A stretch of DNA of 36,363 nt from Planctomycetaceae bacterium (GTDB lineage: Bacteria > Planctomycetota > Planctomycetia > Planctomycetales > Planctomycetaceae), in assembly GCA_020426395.1 (NCBI GenBank), contig JAGQQC010000002.1:1-36363 (forward strand). The letters run 5' to 3'. Position 1 is the stretch's first letter; every line of letters begins with the position of its first letter. The notes beneath the pieces were generated by a model, which worked only from the letters and a program-made list of their open reading frames with translations, made no database searches and was not told the DNA's origin. This document shows positions 16,424 through 36,018 of this stretch, piece by piece. Both the position numbers and the translations under genes were made by a program.

Positions 16424-19400
16424 ATGATGGCCACGAACCTGACCGCCACAAGTCTGCCTGCTGAAATCCATCAGAAGCTAAGCGATGTCGAACGACGCAC
16501 GTTGATCACCCGCATGCAGACGGGGTTACTGAAAACAGCCGCCTGTTTTCTGGCTTTGCTTTTATTAAGCATGTTGATTGATGGCTCATTCGTGTTGTTC
16601 GATACCACCATTCGACTGACGCTTACATTAGCAGTACTTGGTCTCACAGCAGTTGTGCTTGTTCTCAAAGTGGTACAACCTTTCTTGAAACGGGATTCCC
16701 TGGACGATGTCGCCTATCAAGTCGACCGCTCCGTTCCGGCGCTCGAGGAACGTTGGTCCACAGTTCTGAATCTTTCCGGTCGCCAATCCACAGAAACCGG
16801 TTCGACCGCGATGTTGGATCAGGTTCGGACGGAAGCAACCGCTTACGAGTCTCTGGTACAACCCAACGAAATTGTCGACCGGCAAGAGTTGGTTCAATGG
16901 CGGAACATTACACTTGGGTGCGTGGCTCTACTACTGCTTCCATTCCTGTTTGCTCCAATGCAGATGCTCGTCCTGTTTGCTCGCTTCTGGCTGCCGCTTT
17001 CCGACATTAGCCTGGTCAAACTGGAGGCGGTAAACAAAAACACGATTGTCCCTATTGAAGAAAGCCTGACTCTCACGGCTCTGCTAACTTCTGGAGAGGT
17101 GGAAGAAGGGACTTTATTTATCAACCGAGAGGGAAAGGAAGAACAGCTTTCACTCAGCCTGGTCTCGGAAGGGGTCGAAAGCCCCCGATTTCTGCATCAA
17201 ATCAAATCCGTTGAGGAACCTTTTACCTATCGCTGGCGAGCGGGCGATGGTCAAACCGAGGTTCACAAAATCGATATCGCCGAACGACCTGCTTTCGAAC
17301 ACATCAAATTCAAACTCACGCCCCCAGCTTACACAAAATTGCCTGCCGAAAACTTGAATGAATTACCACCGCGCGTACGGGCAGTTAAGGGAAGCCAGCT
17401 CACAGTGGAATTTCGAATTTCACAGCCACTCGATACCTTGACCCTGAAAATGGGAGAAGAGGAAGAATTAGTCCTGAATGCGGTCAACGAACGAACATTT
17501 CAGTTCGAGGTCGAGTTGGAAAAATCATTTTCCTTTTCTCCGCATCTCACCAATGAATACGGCCTTTCAAATCGAAAACCTCCTCTGTGCCGCGTGACCG
17601 TTTACGAAGATCGGGCCCCCGCTGTCAGCATTATCACTCCAGACGATGAAATCGCCGTCCCGGGAGATGATGAAATTGACATCGAATTTATGGCACGAGA
17701 CGACTTCGCCATCACAAAGGCAGAACTGGTGCTCTACAAGGAAAACCCGGAGGACCCTTATGGAAAACCGGTCGAATTCAAAACGGTCGATATCCCATTG
17801 GATGAGCAACAGGACAAAACCTATCTCAACGCATCGACTAAGCTGGATTTGAATGAGTTAAATCTGCAAAACGACGATGTCCTCTCCTATGCAGTTCGCG
17901 TGTATGACTCCAAAGAGAATGTTTCTAATCCTGAATCAAACTCGGAATGGAACCCACAGGACCCCAACAGTAGCCCCTCGAATCAGTCCTCGAAAAACGA
18001 GAACCAAAACAGTCCGAATTCTCAAAACCCAAAGAATCAAACTTCCGGGAATCAGAATCAAAATAGTTCGGAGCAAAGCAACTCTTCACAACAACAGAAT
18101 CCAAACCAGGAAAGCAGTTCTCAACAACAGAATTCGCAATCGCAAGCCAGCTCACAAAGCAACTCGACTCAACAAAATAGTGCCCAACAAAACAGCAATC
18201 CGCAAAACAATAGTCAACCGAACAACTCGGAGCAAAATCCCTCTGCACAAAACAATTCCGAGCAGAATTCGAATCCTTCAAATCAGAACTCCTCACAAAA
18301 CGATTCAACGAATTCATATTCCAGTTCTTCCAATTCCAATCAGAACAGTTCGAGTAGCCAGAATTCGCAAAGTAGTAATTCGGGTTCGAACTCCGGTTCA
18401 AATTCTGAAGGCGAAGAATCGGAACAGGATCTGCGTAAAATTCGCATCGGCGACCAACAGGATAATCCCGAACAAAAGCCGAATGAGAATTCGTCTTCGA
18501 ATTCCAGTCCAAATTCAGGGCAGCCTGGTAACCCGACCTCAGAGGGAAAACTGGATGTTCCACCCTCGAACCAAGAATCCAGCTCGCCCCCTTTCTCTCC
18601 AACAACGAACGATCAGGGTGAATTTGAACCGTTACCATTCACTCCAGATGAGAAAGAAGGCCAGAATGCGGCCAACCGGAAGTCTCCAGAGGATGCCGAA
18701 CCGGGAGCAACTCCCCCTCCCAATGAAATGGGCAAACGGATGCTGGACATCGAAGGACAAAATTCCACTTCGTCACAACAACGCATCGTGATCGACGAAT
18801 TTGCCAGTCGGTTTGAAGGTCAACGGCGCAAAAAATATCAGATGGCAATCGATCCGGTTCTCAAAAAACTAAAAGAACTTCTCACCAATGCCGAAAAGAA
18901 CTCCCGACTTTATCACGACTTTTTGCAGTCCGAGTCTGAATCCGTCGCCTCGATTCCACAATCGTATAAATCGACCGCGGCGCAATTGAAACAATCGTTG
19001 AGCGCCGTTCAGGAGCTGAAACAAAAAAGTACGGGGACACCTTACGCTTTCATCGGACTTCAACTCGATTCCATTCAGGAACTACACATAAACCCGGCCG
19101 CCGATTTATGGGCAGATTTACTTAAACTGGAATCGAAAGTAGAACGACAGCCGGTCACCGAAAAAACGATTTTTCACATTCAGCGTGCACTGATCCTGCT
19201 CGATCAACTGACGCGGAAATACGAGAACATCAAACGGGATGAAGAAATTGCGGATAAACTCCACCGGATTGACAAGCTATACCAGGTTTACCTGGAAGAC
19301 TCGTTCCAGATGTTGGGCAACCCGAAACCAATCAACAACGTGACCGAAGGTAAACCGGTTGAATATGAAGACGTCAGTGAGGAGTACCTGAAGAAGCTCG

Positions 19401-20767
19401 AAGAGATTTTGAAAAAACGTCAGGAGCTGTATGCTGAACTGGCGAAAATATTGGCGGAAGATCCGCGACTGCTCAAACGGTTTATGGATTCGGTCGAAAG
19501 CAAGACAACTATCCTTCGGGAAAAGCTGTCTGAAATGAACGTCTTACAACAACGCATCACCCAGGAAGGGGAATATTGGCAGAAGTACCAGGCACAGATT
19601 AAAGCCGAGAAGGAAACGTCTTCGAGCGACGAACCGAAATCTCGTCCTTTCCCCACTCCTTTACTGGAACGACATCAGCAGGAAGTCTACAAGCTGGTGG
19701 AATACTCGGGTTCGATTCATGACAAGTTTGTCACCTGGTTACCGAAAGAAATCGAAGGGCTCGAAACCGAAGTCCAGGAACTCAATGATCGATCCGCTCA
19801 GTTGACGAACGCCGCGAATGCACTTTTACAGAAAGAAACCACCAATAAGTCTGAGGTTGCGAAAGAACTGATCGAGTCGTACGAAAAGTTCGAAGAACGG
19901 ATCAAGGAAGTTTATCCTGAAGCCAGCAATGAATTCAAAGAACATTTGAATCATCGGGTCGACCAGATCAATGAACTGCAACGTGATCTGGAAAGCTGGA
20001 TTGAACTGGCTGAAGTTTATGAGGAAGGAGATTACCTGGCCGCCGCGGAAATTGATCAGTTCAATTTGCTGGATGATTTATATGTTTTCGTCAGTAAGTT
20101 TCAATCGATGGAATCCGAATTGACCGGGTTTCCAATCGACATCCGACGGACCGCTTTCGATCTTAAGCGAAAACTGCAAATTGATGCTTCCAGCGCCATG
20201 ACGAACAGCGAAGCAGAATTGCATCGGGACAATCTGGAAAAAGCCCTTGAACATCAGCGAAAAGCTCACGAGGAACTGGATTCGGCTGAAAAGTTATTTG
20301 ACCAAATGCTCAAACGAATGATGGAGGAAATCGAAAAAGCTCCGGTACCGGAACTGAATCCGGATGACCTGCAATTCAATTTGACATTGGAAGATCTGCT
20401 GGCCATGTTAGAGCGGGAAGGGGCCTTGCAGGAAAGAACATTGCTGGCGATTTTGAGGCGGCAGTCCAACCTCCAGATCGTCTCCGACTGGATCCAACCT
20501 GGCCCCGGCGGGGGAGGGGGAATGTCGGGAGTTGTGAGCGCCCAGTTGCAACAACAGCAATTGAACCGACTGCAAGACGATCTGTTGAAAAAAGCTCAAG
20601 TGCAAATGAACAAGCCAGGTGCTCGCAAGGAAGACTGGAACAAGCTTATCTCAACTTTGGAAGAAGGAATGAAACAGAACCAGGGTAAGTTAACCCCCGA
20701 ACAATACCGGGCAGCAATCGACCAGTATTTTGAAGTTCTGGCACGGGAACTGGCCGAAGAACGGTGA
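16424..20767 (+). CDS. DUF4175-like giant membrane protein with Asn/Ser/Gln-rich segment
   Basis: A 1447-residue protein. Three TM segments lie near the N-terminus (about 35-56, 63-86 and 160-185), then Ig-like beta domains (about 190-500). A low-complexity stretch made almost only of Asn, Ser and Gln follows (about 505-665), with a second Asn/Ser/Pro-rich part to about 715. The long C-terminal half is mainly helical and coiled-coil, and ends near a Pro/Gly run, PGPGGGGGMSGV. The topology puts everything after TM3 outside the cytoplasm. The order resembles DUF4175 (low-complexity) proteins known to me from other bacteria; I am moderately sure of that link. AAGGA lies five nt before ATG 16424 and eight before a second ATG at 16427. 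The gene ends directly against the stop codon of the opposing DUF1559 gene, with no intervening base. It is the last gene of the MoxR cluster. Confidence 0.8.
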   Translation: MMATNLTATSLPAEIHQKLSDVERRTLITRMQTGLLKTAACFLALLLLSMLIDGSFVLFDTTIRLTLTLAVLGLTAVVLVLKVVQPFLKRDSLDDVAYQVDRSVPALEERWSTVLNLSGRQSTETGSTAMLDQVRTEATAYESLVQPNEIVDRQELVQWRNITLGCVALLLLPFLFAPMQMLVLFARFWLPLSDISLVKLEAVNKNTIVPIEESLTLTALLTSGEVEEGTLFINREGKEEQLSLSLVSEGVESPRFLHQIKSVEEPFTYRWRAGDGQTEVHKIDIAERPAFEHIKFKLTPPAYTKLPAENLNELPPRVRAVKGSQLTVEFRISQPLDTLTLKMGEEEELVLNAVNERTFQFEVELEKSFSFSPHLTNEYGLSNRKPPLCRVTVYEDRAPAVSIITPDDEIAVPGDDEIDIEFMARDDFAITKAELVLYKENPEDPYGKPVEFKTVDIPLDEQQDKTYLNASTKLDLNELNLQNDDVLSYAVRVYDSKENVSNPESNSEWNPQDPNSSPSNQSSKNENQNSPNSQNPKNQTSGNQNQNSSEQSNSSQQQNPNQESSSQQQNSQSQASSQSNSTQQNSAQQNSNPQNNSQPNNSEQNPSAQNNSEQNSNPSNQNSSQNDSTNSYSSSSNSNQNSSSSQNSQSSNSGSNSGSNSEGEESEQDLRKIRIGDQQDNPEQKPNENSSSNSSPNSGQPGNPTSEGKLDVPPSNQESSSPPFSPTTNDQGEFEPLPFTPDEKEGQNAANRKSPEDAEPGATPPPNEMGKRMLDIEGQNSTSSQQRIVIDEFASRFEGQRRKKYQMAIDPVLKKLKELLTNAEKNSRLYHDFLQSESESVASIPQSYKSTAAQLKQSLSAVQELKQKSTGTPYAFIGLQLDSIQELHINPAADLWADLLKLESKVERQPVTEKTIFHIQRALILLDQLTRKYENIKRDEEIADKLHRIDKLYQVYLEDSFQMLGNPKPINNVTEGKPVEYEDVSEEYLKKLEEILKKRQELYAELAKILAEDPRLLKRFMDSVESKTTILREKLSEMNVLQQRITQEGEYWQKYQAQIKAEKETSSSDEPKSRPFPTPLLERHQQEVYKLVEYSGSIHDKFVTWLPKEIEGLETEVQELNDRSAQLTNAANALLQKETTNKSEVAKELIESYEKFEERIKEVYPEASNEFKEHLNHRVDQINELQRDLESWIELAEVYEEGDYLAAAEIDQFNLLDDLYVFVSKFQSMESELTGFPIDIRRTAFDLKRKLQIDASSAMTNSEAELHRDNLEKALEHQRKAHEELDSAEKLFDQMLKRMMEEIEKAPVPELNPDDLQFNLTLEDLLAMLEREGALQERTLLAILRRQSNLQIVSDWIQPGPGGGGGMSGVVSAQLQQQQLNRLQDDLLKKAQVQMNKPGARKEDWNKLISTLEEGMKQNQGKLTPEQYRAAIDQYFEVLARELAEER
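17936..18565 (+). repeat. Low-complexity coding segment (AAC/AAT/CAA/TCG/AGC codons)
   Basis: About 210 codons dominated by Asn, Ser and Gln, with irregular short motifs such as SSQQQNS, NSQPNNSEQN and GSNSGSNSEGE. No exact long tandem unit is visible, and codons vary within each amino acid, so it is maintained at the protein level and is not a simple DNA microsatellite. Long open frames in other frames on both strands (for example 17877-18791 plus, 17925-18638 minus) follow from this composition. Confidence 0.75.
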
Positions 20768-22042
20768 TTATTCCACCTTGAATTTCGCCGACGACTCTGC
20801 TCCGTTTGACTTAAGTTCCAAAATCACTTTCGGACGGGAGGTTGGTTGTTCGTCACTTACAAGAGGCTCCTGGCCGTCGCTGGTTAGAAGAGATTCAAGA
20901 CGGCCTTCGTTCAATTTTTCGGCAGTATAAGAGACTACTTGCCCATCCCCCATTGCGGCCAGCAGCACTTGGGATTGGTTTTGGCTATAAGGGGTGGCAA
21001 AACCTCCGGCACTGTTCAAGGGAGGAGCTTCTCCATCCAACAGGACATCGCGAGGTTCGGTCCAATTAATTTTGGCTTCGGGAGATATCGTCGCCACTAA
21101 AATTGTGTTTGACGTTCCATCCGAAATTTGGGCGAAAGTGCCCCCCTGTTTCAGAGCGGCCTTAAACCCTTCTTTTGTTCCGTCGAATTCAACCTTCCTG
21201 AACGGCGTGTGATCCCCAATCGCCACACCGTAGGCGGTGTGATGACTCTCCAGTTCATCATAAACCGGATCACTGAATTCCGGGATGCCAATTTCCTGGA
21301 CTGTTTTATTCGCGCTACTATCCCAAGGTCGGGTGACATCGTAGAGATCGTAGACTGTTCGTTGATCGAGATAAGGCAGCAGTAAGGTCCGCCAACTATG
21401 CCAAGGTTTACCATCCGGCCCCACCAGTATTCCCGGAGGAAGGCAACCATGCTCAGCGGCATAATTGTGCATGGCCAGTACAATCTGTCTGAGATTATTA
21501 CGCGAATGCTCAAACAGCGCGGCCTTTCTTGCGTCCTCCAAAGTTTGTTCACCCTCGTCTGGGCGAGAAGGGGTCGGATCTTCCAGCGGGATCGTTGCCA
21601 GAAAATGATCGACAAACTCATCCGAAACCTGAGACGGACGGAAGATCAGCAAGACGTGGTCCGTCGTGAGCTTCTCTGCACCTTGATTCAATTTGAGCTT
21701 GGTCCGATCGCCGTGGGGGAGTTGAGTGAAACGGCCCGTCGTGAGGTAACTTTCGTTTCCCTGGCGTTCGCGAAAGATCACGAAATAGTTTTTCTGTTTA
21801 TCTATTTCCGTAGAGTGCTCATCCCAACCATCGATTTGGACTTCTCCACCATCGCTGATATCGGCCACTTTACCATCACCGATGGGCCCCATTTGTGATT
21901 CTTCGATCAGGAGGGTCTCGTTCGCAGTCACTTGAGTGGAGTCAGAATTATTAATCGCATCTGGTTTTTCTTCCGCCGGCCCACAACCGGGGAAAAAATG
22001 AATGACGAGCCCCAACCAGAGCAAAAACGGCAAGCGCGGCAT
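20768..22042 (-). CDS. DUF1559 lipoprotein (downstream copy)
   Basis: From ATG 22042 the protein has 424 residues. It begins with MPRLPFLLWLGLVIHFFPGC, a lipoprotein signal whose Cys (residue 20) would be lipidated, followed by an acidic linker. The C-terminal half has DUF1559 marks: RNNLRQIVLAMHNYAAEHGCLPPG, PWHSWRTLLLPYLDQ, ISDGTSNTILV and the closing AAMGDGQVVSY. Most DUF1559 proteins start with a type IV pilin-like methylation signal; this one does not. An upstream in-frame start at 22087 would overlap the preceding gene's stop and give a poorer signal. AAGG lies about 8 nt before ATG 22042. The gene is 35 bp behind its paralogue and probably co-transcribed. Function is unknown beyond an envelope location. 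Confidence 0.85.
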   Translation of the reverse strand: MPRLPFLLWLGLVIHFFPGCGPAEEKPDAINNSDSTQVTANETLLIEESQMGPIGDGKVADISDGGEVQIDGWDEHSTEIDKQKNYFVIFRERQGNESYLTTGRFTQLPHGDRTKLKLNQGAEKLTTDHVLLIFRPSQVSDEFVDHFLATIPLEDPTPSRPDEGEQTLEDARKAALFEHSRNNLRQIVLAMHNYAAEHGCLPPGILVGPDGKPWHSWRTLLLPYLDQRTVYDLYDVTRPWDSSANKTVQEIGIPEFSDPVYDELESHHTAYGVAIGDHTPFRKVEFDGTKEGFKAALKQGGTFAQISDGTSNTILVATISPEAKINWTEPRDVLLDGEAPPLNSAGGFATPYSQNQSQVLLAAMGDGQVVSYTAEKLNEGRLESLLTSDGQEPLVSDEQPTSRPKVILELKSNGAESSAKFKVE

Positions 22043-22077
22043 AACGTGGGCCTTATGGAAAAGGTTTACGAAGAGAA

Positions 22078-23475
22078 TTATTCCCACACTCTTTTTAACA
22101 CGGCAGTAGAGTTTTCGCCATCAGCAGTGATCGTGAAATAAGTGACGGGCCTTGTTGCGAGAGGGGTTTCCTCTGGTGTTTCACCTCCCTGTGCCGTGAC
22201 CAACGACTCGATAAATTTTTGCCCGAGTATCGGTTCTTCAAACGTTTGAACAGATCCATCACATAAAGCAACCATCAATCGTTCGGTTCCATTGATGGTG
22301 TACGTGGAGAAGCCATCTTTCGAATTCAGTTCGGGAATATTCTTATTCGTAAAGACATCTCGCGGTTCCGTCCATCGAATTTTTTGATCAGACGAGACCG
22401 TGGAAACCAAGAGTGTGCTGGAGGAACCATCGGAGATATCCTGAAACCGGGTTCCCTGATTTAACACTGCTTCAAAACCAGCCTTTGTACCATCGAATTC
22501 GACACCGTTGAGCACGGCATCTTTACCGATCGCCGACAGATAGTGCGTGTAATTCTCCGGGTTTTCACCTCGCAAAGGGTCGGAATAAACGGGCATGATC
22601 ATTACCGCCAGTTTTTTATTGGCTTCACTGTCCCAGGGCTGAGTGACATCGTACATCTCATACATATTCTGCATTTCCAGGTACGGCAGAATCAGCGTTC
22701 GCCAACTGTGCCACGGTTTGCCATCGGGTCCATAAATCACTCCCGGGGGAAGACAACCATGAACGTCATTGTACATGTGAAACGCTAACGCAATCTGCTT
22801 GAGGTTATTCCGGGATTGGGTTATTTGTGCCTGCAACCGGGCCATATCAATTGCCGAGTTTTCACTCCAGTCTTCTTTTTTGGGATCATTGAATTTGACG
22901 ATCCCTTGAAAACGTTTCATGAACTCATCGGTCGCCGCTTTTGGCCGCATTACGACAATCGGAGTTTTCTCTTGCAACTCCTCAAGCTTCACTTCAATTT
23001 TCAGTGTGGCAACCCCCTCCGTCGGCAGTTCTTTGAATTGACCTTTCAGTAAATATCCAGGGGCCTCTCGCCCCATCGTTATTATAAAATACTCTTTCTC
23101 TAGTTCCGGTTTGACTGAATTGTCCGGCGATCTCCACTCTCCGACTTGCAACTCACCCTCTTCACTCAAAGAAACATTCATTCCGGCGCCGATCACATTC
23201 ATCTCTTCCGGAGATTCACCAACCGTTAAAGTCATTGCGTCACCCTGGATCTCCACCTTGCCGGTGACGACCATGTTCTCCGTTGGTTTACTTTCCGACT
23301 GGGAATTCTCTACCTGATTTATTGCTGCAGTCTCTTTTGGAACAACCGGCTGCTCCGAATTGGGTGCCGGAGTGTTCGCTGACTGGGTTTGGCTGGGGCT
23401 TTCTGGCTCGGAACTGCAGCCAATCAACATCAATAATGTCAGGACACAGAGAGCAGAACGCGAGAAAAGAGTCAT
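22078..23475 (-). CDS. DUF1559 lipoprotein (upstream copy)
   Basis: From ATG 23475 the protein has 465 residues; the frame is open to 23553, but the lipoprotein signal MTLFSRSALCVLTLLMLIGC and a GGAGA five nt upstream fix this start. A Ser/Thr/Glu/Pro-rich linker follows, then a middle domain unique to this pair (DNSVKPELEKEYFIITMGRE) and the DUF1559 part: RNNLKQIALAFHMYNDVHGCLPPG, PWHSWRTLILPYLEMQNMYE, ISDGSSSTLLVSTVSS, ALCDGSVQTF. It shares nearly all of these with the next gene, so the two arose by tandem duplication. It is likely anchored in a membrane by its lipid and not assembled as a pseudopilin. Function unknown. Confidence 0.86.
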   Translation of the reverse strand: MTLFSRSALCVLTLLMLIGCSSEPESPSQTQSANTPAPNSEQPVVPKETAAINQVENSQSESKPTENMVVTGKVEIQGDAMTLTVGESPEEMNVIGAGMNVSLSEEGELQVGEWRSPDNSVKPELEKEYFIITMGREAPGYLLKGQFKELPTEGVATLKIEVKLEELQEKTPIVVMRPKAATDEFMKRFQGIVKFNDPKKEDWSENSAIDMARLQAQITQSRNNLKQIALAFHMYNDVHGCLPPGVIYGPDGKPWHSWRTLILPYLEMQNMYEMYDVTQPWDSEANKKLAVMIMPVYSDPLRGENPENYTHYLSAIGKDAVLNGVEFDGTKAGFEAVLNQGTRFQDISDGSSSTLLVSTVSSDQKIRWTEPRDVFTNKNIPELNSKDGFSTYTINGTERLMVALCDGSVQTFEEPILGQKFIESLVTAQGGETPEETPLATRPVTYFTITADGENSTAVLKRVWE

Positions 23476-23480
23476 GGCAT

Positions 23481-23485
23481 TCTCC
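23481..23485 (-). promoter_or_regulatory. Ribosome binding site that decides the start of the upstream DUF1559 gene
   Basis: GGAGA on the minus strand lies five nt before ATG 23475. It selects this start over the open frame to 23553, and gives a clean lipoprotein signal. Confidence 0.6.
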
Positions 23486-23538
23486 GATGAAGAGATTTTA
23501 TGAGCGTAAGCATCGCAACAGGAAATGGCTATTATATT

Positions 23539-23565
23539 AGCATCTCTAAGCATCTCTAAGCATCT
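23539..23565. repeat. AGCATCTCTA tandem repeat, 2.7 copies
   Basis: Two perfect 10-bp units (23539-23548, 23549-23558) and a partial third, AGCATCT (23559-23565), lie 64 bp upstream of the DUF1559 start. A 10-bp period puts every copy on the same helix face. This may be a regulator site or a slippage product. Confidence 0.65.
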
Positions 23566-26493: not shown

Positions 26494-26853
26494 GGAATCC
26501 TCATTTCGCGTGAAAGCGGGAAGTTTGGGGAACTATTGTCAGTCGGACAACATGCAAAAAGCTTGCCGAACAAAGCGGATGTTTCGCCTTCTAGGATCGT
26601 CCAGTATCTATTCGTCCGGTTTCAGAGTTTGGACAAATTTGGACCACTCTTCCATGCCGAGAATAACAGACAGCGAGACTCTCTGCGGTCAAAATATGTC
26701 TATTGTCCAATGGGATCAGAAGATCGGCAAACAGCCTAACCCGGTTCTGACGATTTCGTTGAGTTTTCAGGCAACAGATCTAGAACGAAATCATCTCCTT
26801 GACCAACTTCTCGTTGAACAGGTAATTCCCCAAAAAGATTGGAGCGACTTGGG
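26494..26853. other. 360-bp divergent intergenic region
   Basis: No convincing gene. TTTGGAC occurs twice with a 10-bp period (26628-26634, 26638-26644). TTGACC at 26799-26804 followed 18 bp later by TAATTC (26823-26828) is a weak promoter candidate for the FHA coiled-coil gene, with the start codon 25 bp further on. Nothing else stands out. Confidence 0.4.
26841..26844 (+). promoter_or_regulatory. Ribosome binding site that decides the start of the FHA coiled-coil gene
   Basis: GGAG lies nine nt before ATG 26854. An upstream in-frame TTG at 26839 would place this site inside the coding region, so ATG 26854 is preferred. Confidence 0.5.
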
Positions 26854-29800
26854 ATGTCGAACCGCTCTGACAATTCAGACTTTTCGATGGAAGACAATGA
26901 TGTCGTACTGGTATTAATGCCAGTCGATCATTCTTCCGATATACCGGCGCTGGCTGCCCGGCAAGGTGTCTCCACGATTGGAAGCACAGATGACAATACG
27001 CTCGTCGTGCAGGCCAAAGGGATTGAACCTTACCACTGCTCGATTCTGGTAGAAGATTCTAAAGTTCTGGTTGAAGCCCATGGCTCCCAGACAATGATCA
27101 ATCAGAACAGCATTGAAAAAGCAGAATTAAAAGTCGGAGATGTCTTAACCTTAGGTTCTGTGGAGTTTTCCGTCGTTTCGAATGAGGAATTTCTGGAAAA
27201 CGGAAATACCGCTTCGCTGGTCATTAATTCCCCGGAAGGTTTTGAGCATGATTCCGCTGAAGAACTTGCGGAGGACTTGAGTTTAGATGGTCTACTGAGT
27301 CCCGAGGAACTGTTCGGGACTGCCACGGACGAACCGGAAATTCCTACAGGGGTCAATCTCTCCGAACAAGCTTCTGCAGTTGAACCTGCTGATGAGGACT
27401 CCACCGAGAACGATCTGGAGATCGATGAAAACCTGCTCGCAAGTATTCTGACCGACGCGGAAGAGGAAGAAACCGCTCACTCCGACCTGGATGGTGAAAC
27501 GGAAGCAGACCTTGAAGCGAAATTACTGGCCGATCTTAACTTGCTCGATGAAGCCTCCTCTTCATCCACAGAGGAAGAAGCACCCCTCCTTTCTGTTGAA
27601 CAAGACCTGGAAACAGAAAATGATGAACCGGCTGAAGCCGCCCTGAACGAAGAGGCTATCGAGGAAGAAGAGACTTCTCCTGCACCAGTATCCACAGAGA
27701 CTCTTGAGTCAGTACTGACTGCGGAACTCGAAGCCGATGAAGAAACTGCCGTTACGGATGAACTTGAGAGCCCTGCTGAAGAGCTTGACGAAGTAAGCGA
27801 CCCGGCAATGGAAATGGACGCCTCTGAGGATCTGCTCTCCAATCTGCCCAATATGGAAGAACTCTCGATGCAGCCAGAAGAATCTGCGGAACTTCTGGAA
27901 GAGGAAGAGACGGAAGCAGACACACCCGAAATAGAGCTGATTGAACAAGACAGCTTTGAAGAAGAGGTTGTAGAAACAGACGTCCCGGAAATGTCTGATT
28001 CCCTTCCCAGTTCACCAGCATTTGAGCTGAACGATGAAATGAATGCTCTGCTCGATTCTGTAGCGGAACAGAAAAAGCGAACCGAGCCGAGCGGTGAAGA
28101 AGTATCTCTCGAAGAACTGGAACAAATTTACGAAGAACATCGGCAGAGCGAATCTGATAATGCAGATACTGCCGCCGCAATAGAAGAATTAATGGCCGCG
28201 GAAATCGCAGATGAAGAGCCCGATTCAGACGACGTGGATATCCAAGCCGCGCTTTCCGATCTGGATGCCGCTTTAGAAGTTTCGGAATCCTTAGGAAAAC
28301 CGGAAACGGACTCTACTGAAGACGAAGCAGAACCGCAGGAAGAATCCCTTACAGATTCTCTCGAAAATATTCTGCTTGAAGAAGCTTCGTCCCTCAGCGC
28401 AGAAGTCGAGGAAATTCTCGAACCGGCTGCCCCTGCCGAAGAACATGCTGAACTGGAGGATCTGGATGAATCTCCGGAAACAGAAATGGCGATGGCTTCT
28501 GTTTCTGAACCAGAATTGACCGCCGAAGCTGATTTCGGTTTATCGGAAAGCATGGACTTGTTCGGAGCCTCTGAAAGTGATGCTGAACAAGCAGACGGAT
28601 CCGTCGGCGGTGGAGAAGACACAGAGCATTCCAGCTTGATGATGTTGGCTGAAGATGAACCTGCGGATTCTGAAGATTCTGGTTCTGGTTTGAATCCCGA
28701 AGCAAATCGAGAAACCGTCGAAGAACATTTCACAACAGCGGTCTCAACAGAACGAGAAGGGCACACAACCACGAAGACGGAATGGGAAACGGATCTTACT
28801 GAGGAGGACAATTACTCAGAAGATGAACCCACTCAGTCAGTGACATCGAAGCAACATCGTTCTCAGACAGATGAAGACGCGGTTCAGACAATCAAGCAGG
28901 AACTGGAAAAACAACTGGCTGCCTTACAGAACCAGCTTCTGCTCCAGCAATCGAAGATTGAAGAAAACCTGAACGAGCAATCCGAGCGAGTGAACGCCGT
29001 AGCCCATTGGCAACAACGCTCTGCTGAAGCGATTACCCGTGTTCAGGAAGCAGATGAAAAAGAGAAACTGATTCAGGAGCAGTTAGCCGCTCTACAAGAA
29101 GAGACCGAAAGAGCCCTCGCACGTCGACAACAAATCGATCGCGAAATCCGCCTGGAACAAGATCAACTGGCTCGCCATCGCAATCAAGCGGCGATGGAGG
29201 AAGCACTGACCCGCGAGAATCTGAAAAAGCTGGAAGCAGAAGAACTTCGTCTGCAAGCGGTCCAGAAAGAGATGGAGGCAAATCGGAAGACCTTCCAGAT
29301 TCAACAAGAGAAAACGGAACAGTTACAACAAAAACTGAAAGAACGCGAACAGGATCTGACATCGCGCCGTTCTGAAGTTGAAGAACTGCAACAAGACCTG
29401 GATTCCCGCGAAAAACAACTTGCGGAACAGGAATTCGCTCTGAAATTGCAGCGGGAGGAGTACGAACTTGCCCGCAAAGGTTGGGAAGCGGAACGTGCCG
29501 CACAAAATGAACAACTGAAAGCCCGCTTAAAGGGAGCCGTCCATTGGGAAGAAGCTCTCACGGCCCGGGAACAAGAAATTGAAACACGTTCTTCCGATAT
29601 CGAAGAAAGCATCGTTGCTGAAAAGAACCGGTTGCAGGCCACCCGAGAAGAATTACAGCAGTTAAAAGAGGAAGTCCAGTCCCTCGAAGGTCAGAAACAG
29701 CAACTTCTGAATCGAGAAGAATTACTGCAATCCGAATCCGCCGATTGGGAAGAGCGTACGCAGTTGCTGGCGCAACGGGAAACTTATCTGGCCGAACAGG

Positions 29801-32187
29801 AAAACTCCCTCCGTATTCGTGAGGAAGAACTCACCGAGGCAATCGACAAGCTGGCAGAAGAACAAGCCAATCTGAAAAACAACACGATTGAAGAAACAGA
29901 TCGCCTGGAAAAACGGCGGGAGGATCTGGAACACCAGATCAAATCCCAGAAAGCTGAACTGAACGATCTTCAGGATCAACTCGCGGATGATCGAAAAGAA
30001 TTCGAGCAGGCACGAACCGCGCTGGAAACCGAACGTCAGCAACTTGCCGAAGAAAAAGAGTCTCTTGACGATGAACGAACACGACTCCAGAAATGGGAAG
30101 AGTCGATTGAGGCACATATCGCCGAAGAACTCACCCGTCGCCTGGCCACCGACCGGGAAACGCTTGAAGCGGAACGTCTGCATTTCGAAGAGCAAACGGG
30201 CGAGTTAACAGAAAAAGAACATCAGATCGCGGCCGCCGAACGCAAACTTTCCGAGGCGATGGTCCGGCTAGAAAAACTGGAGAAGGACAACTCACGGCTC
30301 CAGGAAGAAAAAGAACGTCTCGAAAAAGAACTGGAATCTTCCGAATCGCGGAGAGAGCAAGTTCAGTCGATGCTCAATCAGAATCTGGATCAACTGGATA
30401 ACCTGAAAGAGAAAATCGAACTGGAGCGAAGCGCGCTGCTCGAAGCCGAAATGAAACATATGGAGAGCGAACACCAACGCACTGAGCAGTTGGAACAACT
30501 CTCCGATAGCTTGCTCACCTCACAGAAACAGTTGGAACAACTGGAATCTCGCTACGAGGAACTGGAAGAGCAACACCAGCAATTGTCAGACGAAAAAGAG
30601 AAGCTGCAGCACACCTACCATGACTTACTGGAGCAGCAGGAAGAACTTGCCAATCAACTGGAAACGCTACAAGCCAATCACGAAGAATCGTCTGAACGGG
30701 CGGCTGAAGCGCAATCTCTTCTGGACACTGAGCGTACTGCTCAAGCGGAACTAGAGGCCGCCCGCGCTGAAATCGAAACACTGCAAAGTGATTTGCAAAA
30801 CGAGCGCAATCAACTCGAAGAGCAAGAAACCGCTCTGATGTCCGAACGGAACCAGTTGGAAGAAGAACGAAATCAACTGGTTGAAAACCGGGACGAACTC
30901 AGTGCAGAGCGGGAAGAGCTGGAGACATTACGTTCGACCCTGAAACAGCAACAACAAGAAATTGAAAAGCTGGAAGTACAACTTCGGGAACGTTTGTCGA
31001 AAACGGACACCGCCGCCTCCTACAGCGATAGTCAAGCACAGAACTCGCTTGACCGGGAGGACGTCAGCGAACTTGACCCTCTGCTCGCCACAAATGATGA
31101 CATGGCCATGATTGCAGGCTTGGATACTTCATCCCTCCTGGATGAACCCGATGAATTCGAGCCGGTTAACGAATCGACCGCCGAGGAACCAGAGAGCGAG
31201 CTACCAGAAGACCAACATATCCAGGACACAAATGACTTCACCGAGGAACCTGCTGCGACCGCAGAAGAAAATGTTGCCGCTCCCTCACATATCAAAGAAT
31301 CAAGCAGTGGGCAATTGAACTCACTCCGTTCCCAACTGGCTGATTTATTTGACATGCACGAAGAGCAACACGCACAGGGAAAAGAGAATATTTCCCCTGA
31401 AACAGCCGCTCTACCAGATTTCGACGACGATGAATTGAACTCGTTGGAAACCGCTCAAGAACTCGACTCATCCCCAGAAGACATGGCAGCGGAAGCATCC
31501 GATGAATCTCTGGACTCGGAAGAAGGCTCGGAGGGTGGAGGCGATGAAGACAGCATCGAAGCCTACATGCGTCGCCTGATTGCACGCACAAAGCGGGGTA
31601 CAGCTGGAGAAGAGTTTGAAGCGTCCAAAACGAAAAGCTCCTTCCTCAATAAACCACTCCCTACGGCGGCCCCCAAACCAAAAGAAATTGCACCCGAACA
31701 ATCTGTTTCAGCAGAACCAGAGCCTCCCTCCCGACCCGTTCGGGAACGGGCCAAGATAGATGCGAATGAAGTGCGGGCCAACTTGAATACTCTACGAGAG
31801 GTTGCAAACGCCAATGCCCGCACGGCTCTGGCAACTCACTCGACGAAGCAACTTCGTGAAACGTTGATGCTCAAACTGATTGTCACCGTCGTCGCCATGG
31901 TGATTACGGCCATCTTTGCTTTCAGTGGGCTCTGGAGCGAAGAATCTTACACTTGGCAGACAATCGCCGCCGCTACCATTGCCTGTGGTATGTTGTACGA
32001 ATACTTCCGTTCATTCATGAAGATCAAGCAAACAGAATCGATCAGTCGAATCAAAGATCGCATGGAAGAAGGACGGGATATGACCATCGAAAAAACAGAC
32101 GACCTCGTCGAGGAATTCCAGGAGGAAGAAGCCCCCGAGCTGGAATTAGAAGACGAGAACCTGGATGAAAACTCGACCAAATCCTGA
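26854..32187 (+). CDS. Giant FHA-like / coiled-coil / two-TM protein
   Basis: A 1777-residue protein. Residues about 17-108 look like a forkhead-associated domain: TIGSTDDNTLVV at 41-52, H61, MINQNS at 81-86, and VGDVLTLGSVEFSV. The Arg and Ser that bind phosphothreonine in most FHA domains are replaced (GS at 43-44, PYHC at 59-62), so phosphopeptide binding is uncertain. Residues 110-660 are extremely rich in Glu, Asp and Ser. About 677-1385 is a near-continuous coiled coil, rich in Gln, Glu, Leu and Arg. A second acidic linker leads to two TM segments (about 1671-1694 and 1700-1718) and an acidic tail. The protein should be membrane-anchored at its C-terminus with the rod and FHA end in the cytoplasm. 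No family I know has this whole layout. Role unknown; a structural or tethering function fits best. Confidence 0.85.
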   Translation: MSNRSDNSDFSMEDNDVVLVLMPVDHSSDIPALAARQGVSTIGSTDDNTLVVQAKGIEPYHCSILVEDSKVLVEAHGSQTMINQNSIEKAELKVGDVLTLGSVEFSVVSNEEFLENGNTASLVINSPEGFEHDSAEELAEDLSLDGLLSPEELFGTATDEPEIPTGVNLSEQASAVEPADEDSTENDLEIDENLLASILTDAEEEETAHSDLDGETEADLEAKLLADLNLLDEASSSSTEEEAPLLSVEQDLETENDEPAEAALNEEAIEEEETSPAPVSTETLESVLTAELEADEETAVTDELESPAEELDEVSDPAMEMDASEDLLSNLPNMEELSMQPEESAELLEEEETEADTPEIELIEQDSFEEEVVETDVPEMSDSLPSSPAFELNDEMNALLDSVAEQKKRTEPSGEEVSLEELEQIYEEHRQSESDNADTAAAIEELMAAEIADEEPDSDDVDIQAALSDLDAALEVSESLGKPETDSTEDEAEPQEESLTDSLENILLEEASSLSAEVEEILEPAAPAEEHAELEDLDESPETEMAMASVSEPELTAEADFGLSESMDLFGASESDAEQADGSVGGGEDTEHSSLMMLAEDEPADSEDSGSGLNPEANRETVEEHFTTAVSTEREGHTTTKTEWETDLTEEDNYSEDEPTQSVTSKQHRSQTDEDAVQTIKQELEKQLAALQNQLLLQQSKIEENLNEQSERVNAVAHWQQRSAEAITRVQEADEKEKLIQEQLAALQEETERALARRQQIDREIRLEQDQLARHRNQAAMEEALTRENLKKLEAEELRLQAVQKEMEANRKTFQIQQEKTEQLQQKLKEREQDLTSRRSEVEELQQDLDSREKQLAEQEFALKLQREEYELARKGWEAERAAQNEQLKARLKGAVHWEEALTAREQEIETRSSDIEESIVAEKNRLQATREELQQLKEEVQSLEGQKQQLLNREELLQSESADWEERTQLLAQRETYLAEQENSLRIREEELTEAIDKLAEEQANLKNNTIEETDRLEKRREDLEHQIKSQKAELNDLQDQLADDRKEFEQARTALETERQQLAEEKESLDDERTRLQKWEESIEAHIAEELTRRLATDRETLEAERLHFEEQTGELTEKEHQIAAAERKLSEAMVRLEKLEKDNSRLQEEKERLEKELESSESRREQVQSMLNQNLDQLDNLKEKIELERSALLEAEMKHMESEHQRTEQLEQLSDSLLTSQKQLEQLESRYEELEEQHQQLSDEKEKLQHTYHDLLEQQEELANQLETLQANHEESSERAAEAQSLLDTERTAQAELEAARAEIETLQSDLQNERNQLEEQETALMSERNQLEEERNQLVENRDELSAEREELETLRSTLKQQQQEIEKLEVQLRERLSKTDTAASYSDSQAQNSLDREDVSELDPLLATNDDMAMIAGLDTSSLLDEPDEFEPVNESTAEEPESELPEDQHIQDTNDFTEEPAATAEENVAAPSHIKESSSGQLNSLRSQLADLFDMHEEQHAQGKENISPETAALPDFDDDELNSLETAQELDSSPEDMAAEASDESLDSEEGSEGGGDEDSIEAYMRRLIARTKRGTAGEEFEASKTKSSFLNKPLPTAAPKPKEIAPEQSVSAEPEPPSRPVRERAKIDANEVRANLNTLREVANANARTALATHSTKQLRETLMLKLIVTVVAMVITAIFAFSGLWSEESYTWQTIAAATIACGMLYEYFRSFMKIKQTESISRIKDRMEEGRDMTIEKTDDLVEEFQEEEAPELELEDENLDENSTKS

Positions 32188-34260: not shown

Positions 34261-36018
34261 TTACCCGCTTATCTTTTCCCGACGGAGAGCGACGAGGCAC
34301 ATATCATCACTTTGAGACAATTTTCGTGCGAACTGATCAACTTCCTGCACCACTTGCTCGATTAGTTCGTCCATACTCTCGAAAGAGTTTTCCAGCGATT
34401 TAATGAGACGTTTGGTCCCGAATAACTCTTTTTCTGGATTCAATGTCTCCGTGATTCCATCCGTATAAAGAACCAGCGATTCGCCCGGTTGCAGTTCAAA
34501 TTCCAGTTCCTGGAATTTTTGTTCCGGGTTAACCCCAAGCGGCATGCCAGAGATTTCCTTGCCCAGCGGACGAACCTTCGCTTCCGCGTCAATTAACAAC
34601 GGGGGCATATGTCCGGCATTCACGAGACTGATTTTATTCGTTTTCAGATCAAGCACCAGCATCACGAGTGTAATAAATCGAAATCCGATTTCGACCGAGG
34701 AAAGTTCCGCATTCATTGCCCCTAACGTGGCTGAGGCGGTCGCTTCCGTCATCAAGTGGTTTCGTGTTGACGAGAGGAGCCGCGCCATGAACAAAGCCGC
34801 CGGAACGCCCTTGCCGGCAACATCTCCCAACACAATCGCCAGACGATCATCAGGCAATTTGATGTAATCGAAATAATCTCCCCCTACATGTTTGGCGGCT
34901 TCGTAATAATCACAGAAGGTGTATCCCGGAATTGCCGGACGTTCGGAGGGCAAGAAGCCAAGTTGTACCCGCATGGCGAATTCCAGTTCCCGCTCCAGCT
35001 CATGTTGCTTGAGCAACATTTCATGCTGATGCGCATTCTGAATCGCCAGACTGACCTGCGATGCTACACTGAGTAAAACATCCAGATCCTCTTCGGAATA
35101 ACTTTCTCGCAAATCGCTGGTGATCAACTGCAAAGCCCCGAGCACGGTTCCGGAAGTTTCCACCAGGGGAACACACATCGTGGCTCCCGGATCCATATCC
35201 TGTATGGAATCGCTTGAAGAAAAGCGACTGTCCTCCATCGCATTGCGACTCAAAATCGCTTCTTTGGAATTCATAGCCAGTTCAACAATCGTGCGGCTGG
35301 CGCGAGCCGCTTGTGGATCGATATGCGATTGATGCTGACGAGCCGGAATCGTTAATTCGCCTGTTTGGCGATCTTTCATGATCAGAAAGACGGAATCGGT
35401 TTGCGGAAAAAGCTTGAAGCTTTGTCGCAAGATCGTCTCCATCACGGTTTGCAATCTTAACGTGGTCCCCAGAGCTTTACTGATTTCCAGAATCGCCTGC
35501 AGTTTGGTCTCCGCACGGGCCCGGTCTGCCTCTAGACTTTCGCTTGACCTTTTCACCTTCAGGCTTTGGATCACGGCGGTATCGTTTTCAAACTTTCCAT
35601 CATTCAATAACGCACGTTGAATTTCCTTCGCGGAGGGGATCTCTTTATCGATCAGCGAAGGAACAGCCAAAGCCATCGTTTCCTGTCCAGCAGGATCCAG
35701 GGAAGTGGGTAGCATGGCCGAACTGGCTTCGGATCGCATGAACCGGAAGGAAAATCCGCAGACCTTAATGCAATCCTTATTTCTTAACCGGACTTTTCCC
35801 TGAATCGGCTGATCATTGAGCAACGTTTTATTCCGGCTGTGTAGATCTTCCAGATAATAATTCCCCTGTTGTTTCATAATCCGGGCGTGTTGGCGACTGA
35901 CGGAGATGTCATTCAACCGGATTTGACAATCGGGGTGCCGACCGAGCAAAACCAGATCGGAATCGATGTCAATTCGTTCCGGACCGGACAGCCCCTCTTC
36001 AACAATCAGGTACGGCAC
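34261..36018 (-). CDS. FHA-GAF-SpoIIE (PP2C-type) serine phosphatase
   Basis: A 585-residue protein with three domains. Residues 1-95 form a well-kept FHA domain (G26, R27, S41, R42, H44, N63) that should bind phosphothreonine. About 170-340 is a GAF sensor domain (ending LLSVASQVSLAIQNA). About 370-585 is a SpoIIE/RsbU phosphatase with the metal-binding Asp motifs GGDYFDY, LGDVAGKG and LYTDGITE. Such proteins usually dephosphorylate anti-sigma-factor antagonists or other Ser-phosphorylated partners. There is no TM segment, so it is cytoplasmic. The start is GTG 36018 with an excellent GGAGG six nt upstream. It heads a probable operon with the helicase; no cognate anti-sigma gene is in view. 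Confidence 0.93.
   Translation of the reverse strand: MPYLIVEEGLSGPERIDIDSDLVLLGRHPDCQIRLNDISVSRQHARIMKQQGNYYLEDLHSRNKTLLNDQPIQGKVRLRNKDCIKVCGFSFRFMRSEASSAMLPTSLDPAGQETMALAVPSLIDKEIPSAKEIQRALLNDGKFENDTAVIQSLKVKRSSESLEADRARAETKLQAILEISKALGTTLRLQTVMETILRQSFKLFPQTDSVFLIMKDRQTGELTIPARQHQSHIDPQAARASRTIVELAMNSKEAILSRNAMEDSRFSSSDSIQDMDPGATMCVPLVETSGTVLGALQLITSDLRESYSEEDLDVLLSVASQVSLAIQNAHQHEMLLKQHELERELEFAMRVQLGFLPSERPAIPGYTFCDYYEAAKHVGGDYFDYIKLPDDRLAIVLGDVAGKGVPAALFMARLLSSTRNHLMTEATASATLGAMNAELSSVEIGFRFITLVMLVLDLKTNKISLVNAGHMPPLLIDAEAKVRPLGKEISGMPLGVNPEQKFQELEFELQPGESLVLYTDGITETLNPEKELFGTKRLIKSLENSFESMDELIEQVVQEVDQFARKLSQSDDMCLVALRREKISG

Follow-up and report, generated by a model that had tools for sequence, protein, structure and literature searches.

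A planctomycete protein family with a non-canonical FHA head, a coiled coil of variable length and a C-terminal membrane-anchoring module

Positions 26854 to 32187 of the window, the whole 36,363-nucleotide stretch of Planctomycetaceae DNA analyzed here, encode a member of a planctomycete protein family that may act as cytoplasmic tethers or scaffolds anchored in the inner membrane, with a non-canonical FHA domain capturing a protein partner without phosphothreonine. This reading is given a probability of about 0.5. It is based on the order of the parts, on the conservation of both ends of the protein and on a C-terminal module recurring in many planctomycetes. A family with such a tether-like layout, otherwise familiar from eukaryotic membrane proteins, is spread over two planctomycete groups and could provide a concrete gene for the question of how planctomycetes organize a flexible inner membrane or a polar life cycle.

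Layout of the protein

The reading frame is open throughout, from an ATG at 26854 to the stop at 32187; an in-frame TTG at 26839, if used as the start, would add five residues. From sequence, the parts are arranged in the order FHA domain, acidic part, coiled coil, C-terminal module, two transmembrane (TM) segments and tail. This agrees with an earlier note on the same DNA, which described a 1777-residue open reading frame (ORF) with an FHA-like head, an acidic part, a coiled coil and a membrane anchor; the ORF check, Pfam, composition, coil scoring and structural modeling all confirm that layout. The features are as follows.

26854 to 32187, forward strand: coding sequence, 1777 aa (ORF and translation)
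26962 to 27180, forward strand: degenerate FHA domain, residues 37 to 109 (PF16697, PF00498, structure match)
27190 to 28830, forward strand: acidic part, residues 113 to 659, poorly conserved (composition)
28831 to 31068, forward strand: predicted coiled coil, residues 660 to 1405 (COILS-type scoring and a 3.5-residue period, both compared with shuffles)
31324 to 31350, forward strand: motif 1, LRSQLADLF, residues 1491 to 1499 (recurrence in orthologues)
31540 to 31608, forward strand: motif 2, DSIEAYMRRLIARTKR, a short predicted helix (conservation, one match per genome, model)
31750 to 32043, forward strand: juxtamembrane helix (RANLNTLREVANANARTALATH) and predicted two-TM hairpin (profiles A1 and A5, model, charges)

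The FHA head matches PF16697 (the YscD cytoplasmic domain, its top Pfam match) with 41.6 bits and PF00498 with 32.0 bits, both exceeding the Pfam cut-offs, and 35 to 37 of 39 homologues have an FHA-type Pfam match. The AlphaFold2 model of residues ~15 to 110, whose input alignment comprised 39 homologous N termini, has a block-mean pLDDT of >90 across most of the FHA domain. Its predicted beta-sandwich matches FHA crystal structures in Foldseek (best E value, 7.5e-8; TM-score, 0.86 by target length), and the best matches are the FHA domains of FhaA (Rv0020c) and GarA. FhaA and GarA bind phosphothreonine (pThr), whereas the clamp residues are missing in the planctomycete head. In the window protein, the clamp Arg is replaced by S and the Ser by E, and the Asn position is a gap, so that the domain is rightly called degenerate. 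Among the 39 homologues aligned to FhaA, the pThr-binding Arg is found in two, the Ser in one and the Asn in none (a gap in all), while the structural Gly and His are retained in 39 and 36, respectively. Judged by these residues, the head does not read phosphothreonine in the classical way and lies outside the pThr-binding FHA domains; with the clamp lost, any binding by it is likely phospho-independent.

The acidic part of ~550 residues is borne out by composition (24% E and 10% D at residues 111 to 659), and comparison with homologues indicates that so acidic a part is peculiar to the window's genus. Within residues 660 to 1405, coiled-coil probability exceeds 0.5 for 93% of residues in the unweighted score (67 ± 5% in same-residue shuffles) and for 74% in the a/d-weighted score (22 ± 6% in the shuffles); with the COILS-type matrix used, these absolute scores are approximate, and their contrast with the shuffles is firmer. 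Hydrophobic periodicity peaks at 3.52 residues with a power of 2.99, against a shuffle 99th percentile of 1.61. The longest uninterrupted a/d-weighted run (272 residues, 1112 to 1383) is the best part of the coil. Where the register breaks, it mostly shifts by 3 or 4, and periodicity is weak over the first ~250 residues. A length of about 700 residues, as proposed previously, is therefore fair by score, but the register breaks and weak first part mean that the coil is not one perfect rod. Helices rise 0.15 nm per residue, and a fully helical coil of 745 residues would reach ~110 nm; its unambiguous part is shorter.

Between the coil and the anchor, motif 1 recurs in many orthologues, mainly of the window's family, with the consensus LR(S/A)xLAx(M/L)F (e.g., LRSQLAEMF). 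Motif 2 has the consensus DSIxxYMxxLLxR, in which M and R are invariant in 45 sequences, and the model places a short helix at residues 1568 to 1582. Used alone as a query in 11 member genomes, motif 2 gave one match per genome, always a family member (E values, 1.7e-9 to 4.5e-6). The juxtamembrane consensus RanLxSLREVANxSARxAxA, followed by the hairpin, is kept across the class, and the window protein has the combination of motif 2, LREVANxSAR helix and TM hairpin by which the family is recognized.

The model contains continuous helices at residues 1637 to 1694 and 1700 to 1742, predicted to form one helical hairpin that contains the TM segments. TM1 (1671 to 1689) is clear, with a KD value of 2.55, and TM2 (~1700 to 1722) is weak in the window protein (KD, 1.0) but exceeds 1.3 in 43 of 47 relatives; the two TM segments expected from the sequence are thus upheld, the second through its relatives and the modeled hairpin. 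K+R values before, between and after the TM segments are 4.0, 0.5 and 2.9 over 47 rows. This positive-inside pattern would place the rod and the FHA domain in the cytoplasm, and the hairpin is predicted to have both ends inside. Searching Pfam, NCBIfam and the PDB for the C-terminal module returned nothing convincing, no Pfam or NCBIfam model covers it, and a Foldseek search with the hairpin gave no match at an E value of ≤0.001. The module, consisting of motifs 1 and 2, the juxtamembrane helix and the hairpin, appears to be new.

Distribution and conservation

Orthologues with the same layout, for which the earlier note recommended a search, are present in many planctomycetes. With the last 162 residues as the query, relatives were found in 30 of 59 related genomes, and two same-genus orthologues (in G002 and G001) share 76% and 69% identity, respectively, with the C-terminal region. 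Anchor profile A1 found relatives in 135 of the 170 genomes sampled from the window's family and detected no member in about one-fifth of them. In a sample of the class, the same profile found relatives in at least 130 of 298 genomes, and among the matches listed for a sample of the phylum, every one was in the window's class; the large searches score fewer candidates per genome, which makes the class and phylum counts lower bounds. A broader profile, A5, found members in 60 of 80 genomes of a second family (that of G040), apparently a Pirellulales-type family; in both families, almost all of the relatives are long ORFs. In one genome (G027, locus L056), the orthologue is divided into an FHA ORF of 332 aa, a middle ORF of 857 aa and an anchor ORF of 191 aa, through either assembly frameshifts or a real split.

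Two genomes were identified by 100% identity to named plasmids as those of Planctopirus limnophila (G124) and Isosphaera pallida (G042). P. limnophila, which is cultured and used for genetic work, has a member of 1169 aa with an FHA match above the cut-off, encoded at 1668112 to 1671621 on the 5,423,075-bp chromosome contig of strain DSM 3776. Only weak profile hits and no member were found in 45 genomes of the I. pallida family and in 61 genomes of the family of G047, probably the Gemmata family; very divergent members may escape the profile, and several genomes are drafts. The weak hits that were opened in these two families were, by eye, ABC-transporter-type, peptidase-like or kinase-like membrane proteins or chance frames. 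Families with the gene and these two families without it would form an evolutionary contrast.

Among the three sequences of the window's genus, the FHA domain (70 to 73% identity) and the juxtamembrane and TM region (77 to 80%) are almost gap-free, the coil has few indels at 55 to 60% identity, and the acidic part has 38 to 41% identity and a deletion of ~100 residues. Such comparisons indicate that both ends are conserved and that the middle varies freely. Among homologues, the number of a/d-weighted coiled-coil residues varies from near zero to >700, and several members (e.g., those of G214 and G298) have a very short coil. Since rod and acidic part vary freely, a length of ~100 nm belongs to the window's genus, and a spacer fixed at ~100 nm, as suggested previously, is unsupported. 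In a tree built from a small alignment (99 columns, with many open forks), a branch supported at 100/99 sets the members from other families apart from those of the window's family, as vertical descent predicts. On these sequence data, the family is common to two large planctomycete groups.

Proposed role and alternatives

A rod anchored at one end is naturally read as a tether or scaffold, as the earlier note had it. In the proposed mechanism, the hairpin of the C-terminal module would fix the protein in the cytoplasmic membrane, where the module probably organizes it, either by self-association or through a partner that the members share. A coiled coil, whose length depends on the lineage, would project into the cytoplasm, and the non-canonical FHA domain at its far end would hold a protein partner for which phosphothreonine is not needed. 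Because rod length differs by lineage, no fixed distance would be measured across the family, and the very short coil of several members argues that a long reach is no general requirement.

Golgins are long coiled-coil membrane tethers. They and the bacterial magnetosome Mad coiled-coil proteins (PMC12748827) are comparable in working only, as coiled-coil proteins positioning membranes or particles in the cell, and no kinship is claimed. The eukaryotic protein SLMAP has an N-terminal FHA domain, a coiled coil over most of its length and a C-terminal tail anchor, and its authors propose tethering (PMC2712456). The previous statement that no described family has the full layout must be qualified accordingly, as SLMAP shares the order FHA domain, coiled coil and C-terminal membrane anchor (PMC2712456), although the likeness is one of layout. 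The planctomycete protein is bacterial, has lost the pThr residues, carries motifs 1 and 2 in addition and reaches up to ~2000 aa, and its two-TM hairpin with a cytoplasmic tail differs from the single tail anchor of SLMAP; the hairpin and the lost pThr residues place it outside that family. No chain named SLMAP was among the PDB hits at an E value of ≤1e-3, and the likeness rests on layout and FHA fold. By analogy, the family may work like SLMAP. A short literature search covering FHA, coiled-coil and cadherin proteins of planctomycetes brought up no paper on the family described here, and the main text of the P. limnophila essentiality paper is silent on FHA and coiled-coil genes (PMC10632474).

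Planctomycetales and Pirellulales share polar budding and switching between sessile and motile cells (PMC7716846). A role in cell polarity would fit the distribution of the family, and a link of the proposed partner capture and tethering to this polar-budding, dimorphic life is conceivable; the correlation follows the tree and is inseparable from common descent. The connection with unusual internal membranes that the earlier note found attractive is unsupported, as searches of the Isosphaera family and the probable Gemmata family yielded no member. P. limnophila, R. baltica and G. obscuriglobus have all been studied for membrane organization; P. limnophila has strong membrane invaginations, and those of Gemmata obscuriglobus, with its similarly complex cell plan, have also been studied (PMC5394234). 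That the probable Gemmata family lacks the gene speaks against its being generally required for membrane organization there. This bears on the proposal that the protein is a fixed-length spacer or cytoskeletal rod shaping inner-membrane invaginations. The long rod with its membrane anchor, the steady coil length within the genus (few indels at 55 to 60% identity) and the presence of a member in strongly invaginated P. limnophila (PMC5394234) agree with such a spacer, but its length is not conserved between genera and the two families lack members despite the cell plan of G. obscuriglobus (PMC5394234), making the proposal quite improbable.

A phospho-signaling scaffold, whose head would read pThr marks of planctomycete Ser/Thr kinases and recruit signaling proteins to the membrane, would be suggested by the structural proximity of the head to pThr-dependent FHA domains such as those of FhaA and GarA and by a gene for an FHA-GAF-SpoIIE phosphatase, which lies two genes from the tether gene and keeps this place in G001 and G002. 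It is nevertheless rather unlikely given that the three pThr-binding positions are not retained in the homologues (Arg, 2/39; Ser, 1/39; Asn, 0/39). Service in a secretion-type machine, as an inner-membrane part related to type III YscD/PrgH/EscD, would account for PF16697 as best Pfam match and for YscD chains among the profile hits; the YscD/EscD cytoplasmic domain likewise belongs to a protein of the inner membrane and has a divergent FHA fold. In YscD, however, the FHA domain adjoins a single TM segment, followed by a periplasmic ring part. The planctomycete FHA domain (37 to 109) is instead separated by >1500 residues and a long coil from the TM segments (1671 onward), there is neither a periplasmic domain, such as the ring part of YscD/SctD, nor any further Pfam domain, and no secretion gene was found among the neighboring genes scanned; such a role is very improbable. 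Slighter still is the chance of an SMC/Rad50-like chromosome protein without ATPase heads that ties DNA to the membrane: NCBIfam SMC models match the coil weakly, but their scores (48 bits) are roughly a tenth of the 567-bit cut-off and come from the coiled coil alone, and the scans turned up neither an ATPase head nor a DNA-binding domain. As identities, SMC-like and type III secretion-like proteins are rejected on scores and layout. A tether or scaffold with a phospho-independent head is the reading preferred here.

Cadherin-type relatives and gene neighborhood

In several genomes of the window's family, the same C-terminal module occurs on proteins with a signal-peptide-like start and cadherin repeats (PF00028 matches of up to 169 bits, at loci L060, L176, L178, L180, L184, L186 and L188), in which the repeats are followed by a TM segment and then by a short coil or none. 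Two further proteins (L110 and L181) resemble the cadherin type; repeats are Pfam-backed in the other seven. At least two changes between FHA and cadherin heads are needed in the tree. The swap of heads on a shared module suggests the module as the functional core, and its occurrence with cadherin heads fits an anchoring and assembly unit. An FHA-type protein occurs alongside the cadherin type in G067, G144 and G160, with divergent heads that reach the Pfam cut-off only in G067.

A bolder and unlikely extension is that the C-terminal module is a membrane-assembly unit specific to two planctomycete orders, with cytoplasmic non-phospho FHA or periplasmic cadherin heads and changeable rods, and that, where both types occur, a joint complex formed via the module would link periplasm to cytoplasm and organize the cell pole or envelope. 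If this is true, FHA- and cadherin-type proteins would coassemble across the inner membrane through their common module.

The neighboring genes are conserved within groups but differ between the two groups and give no pathway clue. In Pirellulales-type genomes (L132 to L171), the upstream divergent genes resemble those for a DksA-type zinc finger protein and an HtrA/DegP-type protease, and several members of the window's family lie opposite genes for a TM protein with a Zn ribbon and for a secreted protein that matches no Pfam family. In the window, the FHA-GAF-SpoIIE phosphatase (585 aa; 34261 to 36018, reverse strand) has an FHA match of 70 bits. A 1447-residue protein (16424 to 20767, forward strand) has a partial DUF4175 match and is followed by two adjacent DUF1559 proteins of 439 and 491 aa (20768 to 23553, reverse strand), DUF1559 being a large planctomycete paralogue family (PMC10632474). 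In I. pallida, ~85 bases at the start of plasmid pISOP01 match ~60 places on both contigs of the genome with ~72 to 95% identity, often as neighboring runs, and thus form a dispersed, partly arrayed repeat.
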